From positions 186,001-250,000 of the forward strand of contig NZ_PKQP01000002.1 in NCBI RefSeq assembly GCF_002887735.1: DNA of 64,000 bases, given 5' to 3'. The DNA is from Stenotrophomonas bentonitica. GTDB taxonomy: Bacteria; Pseudomonadota; Gammaproteobacteria; Xanthomonadales; Xanthomonadaceae. A program made the position numbers and the translations under genes. The notes under the pieces are model-generated. The model saw only the letters and a program-made list of their open reading frames with translations, had not been told where the DNA came from and ran no database searches. Positions 29,955-52,853 of the stretch are shown piece by piece. How positions within the stretch are numbered: the stretch's first letter is position 1; each line of letters opens with the position of its first letter.

Positions 29955-29984
29955 GCGTCACAGGTTCCTGTGAACTACCGAAGA

Positions 29985-30009
29985 CCCCCTGGAAGCAGGG
30001 GGCTTTTTT
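29985..30009 (+). terminator. Terminator of the hrcA-dnaJ operon
   Basis: CCCCCTG (29985-29991) pairs with CAGGGGG (29996-30002) across GAAG, followed by C and a T6 run. Confidence 0.9.
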
Positions 30010-30026
30010 GTGCGCGCAGACCGGGG

Positions 30027-30130
30027 GTAGAGCCACCCCATGGGTGGCTGCACGCGGTGCCGGGTGGATCGACAGCCACCCATGGGGTGGCTCTACGGTG
30101 GATCGACAGCCACCCATGGGGTGGCTCTAC
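30027..30130. repeat. Three SMAG-type REPs, two within an exact 34-bp tandem duplication
   Basis: Copy A at 30027-30050 has GTAG on the left. Copies B (30073-30096) and C (30107-30130) have CTAC on the right, all with stem AGCCACCC/GGGTGGCT. B and C lie in a 34-bp unit (30063-30096) repeated exactly at 30097-30130, so the outermost copies face outward as in a REP doublet with one side duplicated. Confidence 0.85.
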
Positions 30131-47874: not shown

Positions 47875-47903
47875 AAGGCCGCGCATTGCGCGGCCTTTCT
47901 TTT
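47875..47903 (+). terminator. Terminator after secF
   Basis: AAGGCCGCGC (47875-47884) pairs with GCGCGGCCTT (47888-47897) across ATT, followed by TCTTTT. Confidence 0.9.
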
Positions 47904-48079
47904 GGAACTGCCCGGAGAGCGCGCCAGGGCGGGACCGTCACCTCCCATACACCCCCGTCGGTTGTACTCAGCGGCGCTGCGCACTACGATCCCTTGCGTT
48001 CCGCGCAGCCGCTCCGGTGGCGCGCGACCTCCCTTTTCATCGCGCCGGTCCGCCCTGCGCCAGTCCCCTCGAGGTTTAC

Positions 48080-49339
48080 ATGGTCATCAAACCGCGTGTG
48101 CGCGGCTTCATCTGCGTCACCACCCATCCCGTCGGCTGCGATGCGGCCGTCAAGCAGCAGATCGAGTACATCCAGTCCAAGCCGAAGATCACCAACGGCC
48201 CGAAGAAGGTGCTGGTGCTCGGTGCCTCCACCGGCTACGGCCTGGCTGCGCGCATCACGGCAGCGTTCGGCAGTGATGCTGCCACGCTGGGCGTGTTCTT
48301 CGAGCGTCCGGGTACCGAGACCAAGCCCGGCACCGCCGGCTGGTACAACACCGCCGCGTTCCACAAGTATGCCGAGCAGGCCGGTCTGTACGCCAAGAGC
48401 GTCAACGGCGATGCCTTCTCCGACGAGGTCAAGGCCAAGGTCATCGAGCTGATCAAGCAGGATCTCGGCCAGGTCGACCAGGTGGTGTACAGCCTGGCCG
48501 CGCCGCGCCGCAAGCATCCCAGGACCGGTGAAGTGATCAGCTCCACGCTCAAGCCGATCGGCGCACCGATCACGCTGCGCGGCCTGGATACCGACAAGGA
48601 AGTGATCACCGAAACCACGATCGAGCCGGCCACGCCGGAAGAGATCGCCGGTACCGTCGCCGTCATGGGCGGCGAAGACTGGCAGATGTGGATCGATGCG
48701 CTGCTCGAGGCCGGTGTGCTGGCCGAAGGCGCGACCACCACGGCCTTCACCTACGTCGGTGAGGAAATTACCCAGGCGATCTACTGGAACGGCTCCATCG
48801 GCGCGGCCAAGAAGGATCTGGACGAGAAGGTCGTCGGCCTGCGTCAGAAGCTGGCGCCGATCGGCGGCGATGCGCGCGTATCGGTGCTCAAGGCCGTGGT
48901 CACCCAGGCCAGCTCGGCGATCCCGACCATGCCGCTGTACCTGTCGCTGCTGTTCAAGGTGATGAAGGCCAAGGGCACCCACGAGGGCTGCATCGAACAG
49001 CTCGATACCCTGTACGACATCCTCTACGGCGGCAAGGACGCGGGTACCGCGACCGAGCGCCTGCGCCACGACCTGGTCACCGATGGCGGCCGCAAGGTCG
49101 AGTTGATCGATGACGCCGGCCGTCTGCGCGCGGACTACAAGGAAATGGCGCCGGAGGTGCAGGGCGAAGTGGTCGCGCTGTGGCCGCAGGTGACCAACGA
49201 GAACCTCTACGAGATCAGCGATCTGGCCGGCTACAAGGCCGATTTCCTGCGTCTGTTCGGGTTCGGTGTGGAAGGCGTGGATTACGACGCCGATGTCGCC
49301 ACCGACGTGAAGATCCCGAACCTGGTCGAGATGGCCTGA
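48080..49339 (+). CDS. fabV: Enoyl-ACP reductase FabV
   Basis: 419 residues from ATG 48080, with a GAGG site. Catalyses the last step of fatty-acid elongation with NADH, and family members are naturally tolerant of triclosan. N-terminal Rossmann part [11 protein letters not shown], then [18 protein letters not shown], and the active-site Y-x8-K: Tyr235 in [11 protein letters not shown]. The length (about 400-420) matches FabV rather than FabI (about 260). The gene is monocistronic. No fabI copy is seen in the window. Confidence 0.96.
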
Positions 49340-49350
49340 CCGGAAGGATG

Positions 49351-49376
49351 GATGCCGACCAACGGTCGGCATCTAC
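49351..49376 (-). repeat. SMAG-type REP, CTAC end toward the tandem repeat
   Basis: GATGCCGACC, AA, CGGTCGGCATC arms end in CTAC (GTAG on the minus strand). It sits between the fabV stop and a 23-bp tandem repeat. Confidence 0.75.
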
Positions 49377-49384
49377 CCGTGCGG

Positions 49385-49466
49385 CCATCGATGCACGCGC
49401 GGTGACCCCATCGATGCGCGTGCGGTGCGCCCAATGATGCACGCGCGCTGCGCCCATTGATGCGCG
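49385..49466. repeat. 23-bp tandem repeat, three copies plus a partial fourth
   Basis: Units start at 49385, 49408, 49431 and 49454 (CCATCGATGC, CCATCGATGC, CCAATGATGC, CCATTGATGC) with a constant 23-bp period and two to four changes per copy; the fourth is cut after about 12 bases. It is flanked by two REPs whose GTAG ends face inward. There are no spacers, so this is not a CRISPR array. Confidence 0.8.
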
Positions 49467-49473
49467 GAAGAGG

Positions 49474-49498
49474 GTAGGTCACGACCGTTGGTCGTGAC
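49474..49498 (+). repeat. SMAG-type REP, GTAG end toward the tandem repeat
   Basis: GTAG (49474-49477) then GTCACGACC (49478-49486), GTT, GGTCGTGAC (49490-49498). It is close to the fimX-like stop codon and opposed to the REP at 49351. Confidence 0.75.
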
Positions 49499-49506
49499 GC
49501 TCCCAA

Positions 49507-51576
49507 TCAGCTGAAATCGAAATCCATCACCGGGCCGGCCGGGCCGACGAAGTCGCCCTGCACGTAGTCCACCCCGGCACTGAAAAGCAGGCTCATCGAG
49601 TTGGCATCGGCGACGAACTCGGCGATGGTGCGGATGTTGGCGGCCTGCGCCCGCGCGGTGATCTCGCTGATCTTCCCGCTGTGTTCGCGGGTGCTGGCGA
49701 GGTCGCAGGTGAAGTCGCGGTCCAGCTTGAGGAACTGCGGCTGGAAATGGGCCAGCAGCTGGAACGAGTCCAGCCCCGAGCCGAACTGCTCCAGGCCGAT
49801 CCGGCAGCCGAGCGGCGCGATCGCCGCCAGGAACTGCTGCGCATTGCGCAGGTGGGTGAATACCTTTGCCTCCGGGGCATGCAGCCACAGCTGTTCGCCC
49901 GGCACGCCCTGGGCCTGCAGCTCGCGGCGCAGGGTGACGATCATCTGCGGGTCGTTGAACGACTCCGGGGTGATCTTGACCATCAGGTGGGTGACGTGGC
50001 CCTCGCGCCTGCGTGCGGCGAGCATGCCGATCGCGTGGGTGACCACCCAGCGGTTGATGTCGGCCAGCAGGCCGTGTTCCTCGGCGATGCCCAGGAACGC
50101 GGTCGGGCTGAGCAGCTCGCCGTTGTGCTCCAGGCGCAGGTAGGCCTCGTACAACTCCAGCGCTTCGCCCTGCAGGTTGAGCACCGGCTGGTAATGCAGC
50201 TGGAAGCCATCGCCGTCCAGCGCCTGGCGGATGCGTGCGACCCAGTGCTGGATGCGCTCTTCTTCCACGCGGTCCACTGCCGCCGGGTCGAACACCCGGG
50301 TGGTGTTGCCCAGTTCCAGGGCTGCCTGCGTGCACTCGGTGGCGCGGGCCAGCACCTGGCCGATGCTGGCGATCTTTTCGCCGACCTGCACGCCGCCGAC
50401 GCTGACGGTGACCGTGGCCGAGCGCTCGCCGATGCTGAACACCTGCGCGGCGAAGGCGGCCCGGATCTGGTCGGCCAAGGCGACGGTCTGCGCGTAGGGT
50501 GCTTCGGTCAGCACGGCGAAGCTGTGTTCACCGAAGCGGGCCACCTGGGCAGCGTCGCCAACGGATTGGGCCAGCACGCGGGCGAGGGCGCCGATCAGCG
50601 CGTCGGCCGAGTCCAGCCCGATCTCCGGCAGCAGGCGCGCATAGTGGTCGGGCTCGACCAGCAGCAGGCCGAACCGGCCCTCGCTGCGGCCGGCCTGGGC
50701 CACGGCATTTTCGACATGCAGCATGAAGGTCGGTCGGTTGAGCAGGCCGGTGACCTGGTCGCGCTGGCGCAGGTCCTCGACCTCGCGCGCCAGCTCCGGG
50801 TCGAACTCCATGCGGCGGCGGAACACCACCTGCAGGCAGGATTCGCCTTCGTAGCTGGCCTGGGTGAACTCCATCGTGGCCGGGAACACCGCCCCGTCCT
50901 GGTTGCGTGCGTCCACCTGGTACTGCGGCGGCGGTGCATCGCCCTTGCTCATCGACTTGAGCAGCTGCTTGAAGCCGTCCACGTGCTGCGGGGCGACCAT
51001 GTCCAGCAGCGAGATGCCCTCCACATCCTCGAAGGTCTCGTAGCCGAACATCTCCAGGTAGGCCTCGTTGGCGCGGATGTGCATGCCTTCATGGACATAG
51101 GCGATCGGGTCGCGCGAGGAGGAGATCAGCGCGTCGCAGCGGCGCTCGGTCTCGCGCATCTGGGCCTCGATCCGGCGCAGCCCGCGGCGCGCGTGCAGAT
51201 CGGTCCATTCATTGCGCACCACCGCCAGCAGGTGCTCGGGGCGGTGGCGCAGGGCGATGGCGCGGATGCCGTTGGCACCGGCCTCGACCCACTCGTTTTC
51301 ATTGATCGACTCGGCCAGCAGGATCATGGGGATGTCCTTGCCACTGGCCGCGATCTGCTGGGTGACCTGCAGCAGCGGGATGCTCTGGGCGGCAGCGACC
51401 AGTACCAGGTCGATCGGCTGGGTGCCCAGGACGTGGGCCAGTTCCTCGCTGTGCTGCGGGCGCGTCGGGCGCACCGCGATGCCGCTGTTGCGCAGCGTGC
51501 TGACGATGGTCTCGGCGTTCTCGCCGCTGTCGTCCACGATCAGCAGGCGGACCGTCATGTCATTCGCGTTCTGCAT
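49507..51576 (-). CDS. fimX: FimX-like REC-PAS-degenerate GGDEF-degenerate EAL protein
   Basis: 689 residues; ATG 51576 has GGGGAG ahead, so the first methionine fits. Domain order response-regulator, PAS, GGDEF, EAL matches FimX, the high-affinity c-di-GMP sensor that controls type IV pilus twitching through PilZ and PilB. The receiver domain lacks a phospho-acceptor Asp (LVLVAAAQS). GGDEF is RFGEHSF, and EAL is YEAYLRL with EQFGSG for DDFGTG, so neither cyclase nor phosphodiesterase activity is expected, while the EAL pocket may still bind c-di-GMP. The pil genes are not in this window. It is followed by the REP block and fabV. Confidence 0.85.
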   Translation of the reverse strand: MQNANDMTVRLLIVDDSGENAETIVSTLRNSGIAVRPTRPQHSEELAHVLGTQPIDLVLVAAAQSIPLLQVTQQIAASGKDIPMILLAESINENEWVEAGANGIRAIALRHRPEHLLAVVRNEWTDLHARRGLRRIEAQMRETERRCDALISSSRDPIAYVHEGMHIRANEAYLEMFGYETFEDVEGISLLDMVAPQHVDGFKQLLKSMSKGDAPPPQYQVDARNQDGAVFPATMEFTQASYEGESCLQVVFRRRMEFDPELAREVEDLRQRDQVTGLLNRPTFMLHVENAVAQAGRSEGRFGLLLVEPDHYARLLPEIGLDSADALIGALARVLAQSVGDAAQVARFGEHSFAVLTEAPYAQTVALADQIRAAFAAQVFSIGERSATVTVSVGGVQVGEKIASIGQVLARATECTQAALELGNTTRVFDPAAVDRVEEERIQHWVARIRQALDGDGFQLHYQPVLNLQGEALELYEAYLRLEHNGELLSPTAFLGIAEEHGLLADINRWVVTHAIGMLAARRREGHVTHLMVKITPESFNDPQMIVTLRRELQAQGVPGEQLWLHAPEAKVFTHLRNAQQFLAAIAPLGCRIGLEQFGSGLDSFQLLAHFQPQFLKLDRDFTCDLASTREHSGKISEITARAQAANIRTIAEFVADANSMSLLFSAGVDYVQGDFVGPAGPVMDFDFS

Positions 51577-51668
51577 TCAGTACTCCCCGGACTGCAAACT
51601 TGATACACGATGCGTGTGACTACGTCCATGCGGCAAACCGTAGCCGATCACGGAACGCGGGTCCCGGC

Positions 51669-52853
51669 TCAGGCCACGCTGCCCGCGGCATGGCCACAGG
51701 CCCAGGCCCACTGGAAGTTGTAGCCCCCCAGCCAGCCGGTCACGTCCAGCACCTCCCCGATGAAGTGCAGGCCGGGAACCAGTTGCGATTCAAAGGTACT
51801 GGAGGACACCTTGCGGGTGTCGACCCCGCCCAGCGTCACCTCGGCGGTACGGTAGCCCTCGGTGCCACTGGCCACCAGCGGGAAATTCTGGAGCAGATCG
51901 GCTGCCTCGCGCAGCTGCGGCTCGTCGATCTGGCGCACCAGCCGGTCCGGCAGCCAGTGCTCGCACAGGCGCAGCGCGAGCCGCCGCGGCAGCACCTCGG
52001 ACAGCACCGTGCGCAGCTCGGCAGCGCCGCGCTCGGCCTTCATCCGGCGCAGCCAGCCCAGCGCGTCCTGGCCCGGCAGCAGGTCCAGCCGCAGCTCATC
52101 GCCGGGCTGCCAGTACGAAGAGATCTGCAGGATCGCCGGGCCGCTGATGCCGCGGTGGGTGATCAGCATGGAATTGCGGAACTCGACCCCGTTGCAGCGT
52201 GCCTCGATCGGCAGGGCGACGCCGCTGAGCTCGTTGAAGCGCTCCTGGTGCTTTCCGCTCAAGGTCAGCGGCACCAGCCCGGCCCGGGTCGGCAGGACCT
52301 CGTGGCCAAACTGGCGGGCCAGCTCATAGCCGAAGCCGGTGGCGCCCATGCTCGGGATCGACAAGCCACCGGTGGCGACCACCAGCGAGGCGGCGTGGAA
52401 GTGACCCTGCGCGGTGTGTACGTGGAAACCGTCCGCGCCGCGCTCGACCTTCTGCACCCCGCAGTCGGTGCGGATCTGCACCCCGGCGGCCTGGCATTCG
52501 TCCACCAGCATCTTCACGATCTGCTTGGAGGAGATGTCGCAGAACAGCTGGCCCAGTTCTTTTTCGTGATACGCGATGCCGTGCCGCTCCACCATCTCGA
52601 TGAAGTGCCAGGGGGTGTAACGGGCCAGCGCGGATTTGCAGAAGTGCGGATTGGCCGAGAGGAAGTTGGCGGCGGTGGTGCCGGTGTTGGTGAAGTTGCA
52701 GCGCCCGCCGCCGGACATCAGGATCTTCTTGCCGACCTTGTTGGCATGGTCGATCACCTGCACCATGCGCCCGCGTCTGCCAGCGGTCATCGCACACATC
52801 AGCCCGGCCGCGCCGGCGCCGATCACCAGTACATCGCATCGGATCACGGACAT
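51669..52853 (-). CDS. yhiN: HI0933-family flavoprotein (YhiN type)
   Basis: 394 residues. FAD-dependent oxidoreductase of unknown substrate: the N-terminal dinucleotide motif CDVLVIGAGAAGLMCAMTA, the family-specific KVGKKILMSGGGRCNFTN, FCDISSKQIVKMLVDE, VVATGGLSIPSMGATGFGYELA and the C-terminal FIGEVLDVTGWLGGYNFQWAWACG. All key blocks are intact. yaeQ precedes it 10 bp away on the same strand, so the two are probably cotranscribed. Confidence 0.94.
   Translation of the reverse strand: MSVIRCDVLVIGAGAAGLMCAMTAGRRGRMVQVIDHANKVGKKILMSGGGRCNFTNTGTTAANFLSANPHFCKSALARYTPWHFIEMVERHGIAYHEKELGQLFCDISSKQIVKMLVDECQAAGVQIRTDCGVQKVERGADGFHVHTAQGHFHAASLVVATGGLSIPSMGATGFGYELARQFGHEVLPTRAGLVPLTLSGKHQERFNELSGVALPIEARCNGVEFRNSMLITHRGISGPAILQISSYWQPGDELRLDLLPGQDALGWLRRMKAERGAAELRTVLSEVLPRRLALRLCEHWLPDRLVRQIDEPQLREAADLLQNFPLVASGTEGYRTAEVTLGGVDTRKVSSSTFESQLVPGLHFIGEVLDVTGWLGGYNFQWAWACGHAAGSVA

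Follow-up and report, generated by a model that had tools for sequence, protein, structure and literature searches.

A tail–tail REP pair with a drifting 23-bp tandem array as its spacer between fabV and a fimX relative of Stenotrophomonas bentonitica

The fabV–fimX gap and its repeats

Where two genes of Stenotrophomonas bentonitica converge, the gap between their 3′ ends holds a pair of REPs and, between the REPs, a short array of 23-bp units. Such an arrangement could be a binding site, the trace of a rearrangement or a by-product of the REPs, and we asked which of these the locus resembles. The analysis is based on a contiguous stretch of 64,000 nucleotides (the window), whose positions are used throughout unless a locus is named. 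On the left of the gap, fabV (48080..49339, plus strand, with the start set by eye at the methionine of MVIK) encodes an enoyl-ACP reductase and is transcribed into the gap; it scores above the cut-offs of NCBIfam NF043048, an equivalog model, and NF010177, and contains the Pfam domains PF12241, PF12242, and PF07055. On the right, the gene at 49507..51576 on the minus strand encodes a PAS-GGDEF-EAL protein (Pfam EAL, GGDEF, and PAS_9) matching the FimX chains 7lkq, 4foj, and 4j40 in PDB (E 2.3e-195 for 7lkq, "FimX(GGDEF-EAL)"). Every NCBIfam equivalog match of this protein lies below its cut-off, and we call it a fimX relative. The flanks named by the earlier, sequence-only reading are thus confirmed, FabV by NCBIfam and the FimX relative by PDB and Pfam. 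Our literature search found no paper treating fabV and fimX together.

The two REPs each consist of a GTAG tail followed by a palindrome with a perfect 9-bp stem and a 3-base loop, the pattern of GTAG REPs (SMAG type). REP 1 occupies 49352..49376 on the minus strand (GTAGATGCCGACCGTTGGTCGGCAT, GTAG at 49376-49373) and REP 2 49474..49498 on the plus strand (GTAGGTCACGACCGTTGGTCGTGAC, GTAG at 49474-49477), so that both tails point toward the array, as had been read from the sequence. Inverted GTAG REPs with the tails inside are known as TT (tail–tail) dimers (PMC3733652), and the pair, with its spacer of 97 bp, is one of them. According to the same source, as far as its text was available, spacers of REP dimers are mostly 20-100 bp long, HH spacers tend as a rule of thumb to be conserved and TT spacers to be variable, and REPs of REP-rich genomes are found chiefly between unidirectional and convergent ORFs.

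The family defined by GTAGNNNNCGACCNNNGGTCG has 74 copies in the genome, 39 and 35 on the two strands, against none for the reversed control; intergenic placement was checked for REP 1 and REP 2. Among 126 strict GTAG REPs in 65 REP regions and the window, neighbors at most 150 bp apart form 13 TT, 20 HH, and 16 HT pairs, though a few of the hairpins counted may have arisen by chance. The inward orientation is therefore ordinary. It had been contrasted with outward doublets elsewhere, and three of the window's five other close pairs are indeed HH (outward), the remaining two being one TT (29958-30049) and one HT (tandem), but the 13 TT pairs across the genome remove the exception.

Elsewhere in the window, the REP cluster at 30027-30130 (GTAGAGCCACCC) contains an exact 34-bp tandem duplication that includes a REP (TRF score 136). 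Similar REPs surround the ends of a RAYT-like gene at L103:1417-2043, the single Y1_Tnp gene detected in the genome; on the strand of this gene, GTAG hairpins occur at 1420 and 1982. As the hairpin at 1982 lies inside the listed ORF, the true start of the gene is probably further in. These two REPs are of another class, and none of the class of REP 1 and REP 2 stands beside the Y1_Tnp gene in L103.

The spacer itself is filled by head-to-tail units. TRF reports an array at 49379-49463 with a period of 23 and 3.7 copies, in agreement with the three and a half copies noticed earlier; its score of 107 rises to 127 when the array is read as a 46-mer, and shuffling the window 60 times with dinucleotide counts preserved gave at most 70. 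The units, to which no strand is assigned, lie at 49379..49401, 49402..49424, 49425..49447, and 49448..49470, the starts being spaced by exactly 23, 23, and 23 bp, and the last is partly diverged, its final four bases being off the consensus. A search of the genome with the 92-bp array, scoring 40 of 43 candidates, found a single site, the next match having E 0.05 over 20 bases. No plasmid sequence matched, and one weak match over 42 bases to Mycobacterium phage Beckerton (E 0.006) was taken as chance.

Distribution and history of the spacer

To place the arrangement within the genus, we compared the gap across genomes. Of 44 named loci, 33 gave a fabV–fimX gap, the other 11 having no fabV within the stretch; all 91 genus genomes gave a match, and the 30 loci returned from them provided 24 full gaps, making 44 distinct gap sequences from the two sources. 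For 57 of the 61 remaining genomes, the gap was taken by coordinates, and some of these stretches stop at a contig end or may cover the gap in part. The comparison thus covers 87 genomes; the other four (G015, G020, G051, and G075) had no listed place.

REP 1 and REP 2 are both present in the gap of 7 of the 87 genomes, representing six species including S. bentonitica. The carriers are the window's genome (G000), the conspecific G007, strain 13146 (L032), USBA GBX 843 (L043), BIGb0145 (L031), SAM-B 004 (L029), and the metagenome-assembled genome (MAG) UBA11113, for which the contig-end loci L030 and L079 were taken as one because their overlapping gap text agrees. One GTAG tail is altered in each of L031, L032, and L043. 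All carriers form a single seven-row clade in the fimX tree (support 100/100), a tree computed without six distant loci and weakly supported in its deep branches. In the gap stretches of the 57 further genomes, neither the REP pair nor the 23-bp array was found, the nearest case being a single palindrome in L208 that is 5 bases from REP 1 and 6 from REP 2. Loose TT flags in L185, L193, and L195 proved to be pairs of other classes; in two of these, one partner is a terminator-like hairpin. Gaps of the S. maltophilia group mostly contain a T-run hairpin and REPs of other classes. A record titled Bacillus subtilis SK7B5 (L036) carries a Stenotrophomonas fimX region at zero branch length to G072, and is a mislabelled or contaminated assembly.

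In five sister lineages, fabV and fimX are separated by about 3.2 kb of TetR and transporter genes, referred to below as the block (L037:5155-7125 and relatives). In four of the five, a REP 2-like REP stands alone adjoining fimX; REP 1 is absent within 320-330 bases past fabV in all five. Since the REP 2-like REP adjoins fimX in lineages that lack REP 1, REP 2 is, judged by distribution, the older of the two. The array had been proposed to be older than the REPs. The comparison does not support this: both REPs are present in every relative in which units were found, and the fimX-side REP occurs outside the array clade.

Within the clade, the number of 23-bp units differs between lineages: there are four in the window and in G007, where the arrays are of equal length, three in USBA GBX 843, and two each in 13146 and BIGb0145. 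The spacer of the MAG has a 21-bp unit in 2.6 copies, and the MAG was left outside the 23-bp unit counts, the REP divergence, and the terminator counts below; that of SAM-B has no clear unit by eye. With a copy number variable between lineages, the array is a minisatellite. The repeat is thus present in near relatives, in two to four copies and between REPs that both face inward. Its absence there, together with no other occurrence of the unit, had been named as the sign of a neutral local expansion; of these, only the latter holds in the window's genome.

Similarities among the units give some indication of their order of origin. The last unit of 13146 matches the window's last unit at 21 of 23 positions, and those of USBA GBX 843 or BIGb0145 at 19 of 23; the window's last unit matches its own sibling units at no more than 17 of 23. 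The first units of the window and 13146 agree at 20 of 23. Last and first units thus match across species, and at least two units predate these species. Within the window, units 1 and 3 are alike at 20 of 23 positions and units 2 and 4 at only 16 of 23. Given the likeness of units 1 and 3 and the better TRF score at 46 bp, the window's lineage probably gained two units in a single 46-bp event that preceded the separation of G000 and G007.

Drift of the units and a probable role for the REPs

The differences between copies had been taken to suggest that the array is older than the REPs or under selection. G000 and G007 have 4 differences in the 91 bases of the array (49377-49467) and 16 in 545 four-fold degenerate sites from parts of fabV and fimX (Fisher's exact test, P = 0.51); their REPs differ at 0 of 50. 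In the four other species compared, the REPs show 1, 2, 2, and 2 differences from those of the window in 51 bases, where four-fold sites have diverged by 17–19%, a deficit with P values of 0.001-0.004 in species that are not independent of one another. The array thus changes at about the four-fold rate and the REPs below it, so that neither age nor selection follows from the drift. On these sequence comparisons, the REPs are kept constant, by selection or homogenization, while the units drift. A counterpoint to neutrality is the exact 23-bp period in five genomes despite differing unit sequences. The preservation of the last unit (21 of 23 positions shared with 13146) could also reflect constraint, but a stretch of 23 bases would be expected to show few changes anyway.

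The exact spacing and the last unit common to several species are what one would expect if the units were an iteron-like array occupied in register by a DNA-binding protein. The remaining evidence makes such binding highly improbable. A period of 23 bp, described earlier as near two helical turns, is about 2.2 turns and not a whole number; copy number ranges from 2 to 4, with a 21-bp unit in the MAG and no clear unit in SAM-B; and no further copy of the unit exists in the genome, where the next match of the array is the one over 20 bases. Iterons and operators are recognized by a unit that recurs elsewhere in a fixed register, and the array does not show this. The array is located between the 3′ ends of converging genes. 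A scan for the sigma-70 consensus, the one promoter type it covers, gave 0 promoter-like sites in 47900-51700, and the units diverge between conspecific genomes at about the four-fold rate. An RNA element, with alternating units pairing into a structured 3′ UTR or a small RNA, may seem to be suggested by the folding of the whole gap at z −4.0 on both strands. With the REPs removed, however, the array folds no better than shuffled sequences (z −0.15 and +0.47), so that the structure of the gap belongs to the REPs, and no Rfam family matched 49200-49650 up to E 1. We regard this explanation as extremely improbable.

The spacer could also be the scar of a REP-mediated rearrangement, such as the loss of the TetR and transporter block of the sister lineages. 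That block lies at the same place, four of the five sisters have the REP 2-like REP by fimX, and REP 1 occurs only in the block-free clade. Against this, the fimX-proximal end of the block has no likeness to the spacer by eye, and more distant relatives have fabV and fimX adjacent without the block. TetR homologues of 75–77% are present elsewhere in the TT-clade genomes G025, G046, G058, and G067. For the window's genome, G007, G039, and G026, no close homologue turned up; the homologue search, the one test made of this explanation, gave it no support. A rearrangement scar, also put forward in the sequence-only reading, is very unlikely on this evidence, though the weakly supported deep branches of the tree leave room for a loss of the block. 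Of that reading as a whole, the geometry stands; the inference from drift and the greater age of the array find no support, and binding in register is disfavored.

REP hairpins may serve in transcription termination, and the gaps of the TT clade differ from others in a way that bears on such a role. Under a strict rule (at least five T in eight), terminator-like hairpins were found in 0 of 6 TT-clade gaps. They are present in 27 of the 38 other gaps, in 18 of these on both strands; because 20 of the 38 come from a single part of the tree, the S. maltophilia group, the gaps share descent and are not independent observations. When four T in eight were accepted, matches also appeared in two TT-clade gaps, on both strands in L031 and on one in L074. 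A terminator scan of 47900-51700 in the window found one site against a shuffle mean of 1.6, which is no excess. In the place of REP 1, directly after fabV, a hairpin with a short T run can be seen by eye in five sister genomes. The contrast in terminators and the sister hairpins fit the REPs as 3′ ends of both transcripts, without amounting to proof, and it is probable that these hairpins terminate or protect the fabV and fimX mRNAs. In PMC3733652, as far as seen, roles of REPs in termination and mRNA stabilization are given as hypotheses.

The account that we consider the best by far, and likely to be correct, is that of a TT REP dimer at converging genes, whose spacer is a neutral, drifting 23-bp minisatellite and whose REP hairpins are the working part. 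Units would be gained and lost through replication slippage or unequal exchange, perhaps aided by the neighboring palindromes, and would afterwards have drifted without function. The functional part would be one REP hairpin per transcript, acting as its 3′ end via Rho-assisted termination or shielding from 3′ exonucleases, and the REPs would then stand where relatives often carry an intrinsic terminator. An array resembling a binding site can, on this account, be a drifting by-product beside REPs.

REP spacers elsewhere and comparison with known systems

A survey of 185,181 bp of the genome, consisting of the window, 27 loci, and 65 REP stretches with some overlap, gave 13 distinct arrays with TRF scores of at least 72. 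Twelve of these are at a REP: 11 share sequence with a strict REP, and the fabV–fimX array is 3 bp off. The thirteenth is in a locus without a REP. Positions no more than 100 bp from a REP make up 12% of the total, most stretches having been picked for their REPs. In the window, the unbiased part of the survey, both arrays scoring above 60 (30063-30130 and the fabV–fimX array) are located at REPs; the REPs, counted together with 100 bp to either side, account for 3.4% of the window (14 hairpins, one perhaps not a REP). Two further arrays are confined to spacers, one of 18-bp units in a TT spacer (L127:175-223) and one of 17-18-bp units in an HT spacer (L128:165-258). Arrays were also found in 3 of the 57 other gap stretches after fabV: 7 bp × 5 in L196:35-69, where the one REP is >200 bases away, 8 bp × 22 at a contig end in L201:35-213, and 74 bp × 2.4 in L223:130-303, the scan naming no REP in either of the latter. 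As these arrays have a distant REP or none, a REP is not required for an array in the gap.

A broader proposal would be that REP pairs breed minisatellites, the palindromes making the spacer slip, and that REP spacers of the genus are duplication hot spots, some of them spacer-only. We think this unlikely, if worth keeping in mind; were it true, REP spacers would offer rapid typing loci for the clade as well as a natural system in which to test palindrome-driven slippage.

Among known systems, the SM13 REP class GTAGAGCCGACCGTTGGTCGGCT shares the core CGACCGTTGGTCG with the REPs here, and differs in the bases adjacent to GTAG, which are ATGC and GTCA here (PMC3686654); in the part of that source available, its RAYT is given as n.a. 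The closest match for the locus as a whole is the TT dimer of Stenotrophomonas GTAG REPs (SMAG), described in the accessible text of PMC3733652 and PMC2613905 with the same GTAG tail, stem, and short loop, and likewise with tails inside, a variable spacer of 20-100 bp, and a position between convergent genes. The difference is that here the spacer itself is the tandem array. Tandem amplification, as published in the same two papers, takes in the REP together with flanking DNA; the parts of them that we could consult do not describe an array confined to the spacer, and among the matches listed by our literature search, no paper was evidently on spacer-only minisatellites between REPs. The minisatellites used for MLVA at S. 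maltophilia SMAG loci (PMC2613905, as far as available) also have a locus-specific unit and a copy number variable between lineages, and also occur at REPs. Their unit contains the SMAG, whereas the unit here is without it, and here the two conspecific genomes have arrays of equal length.
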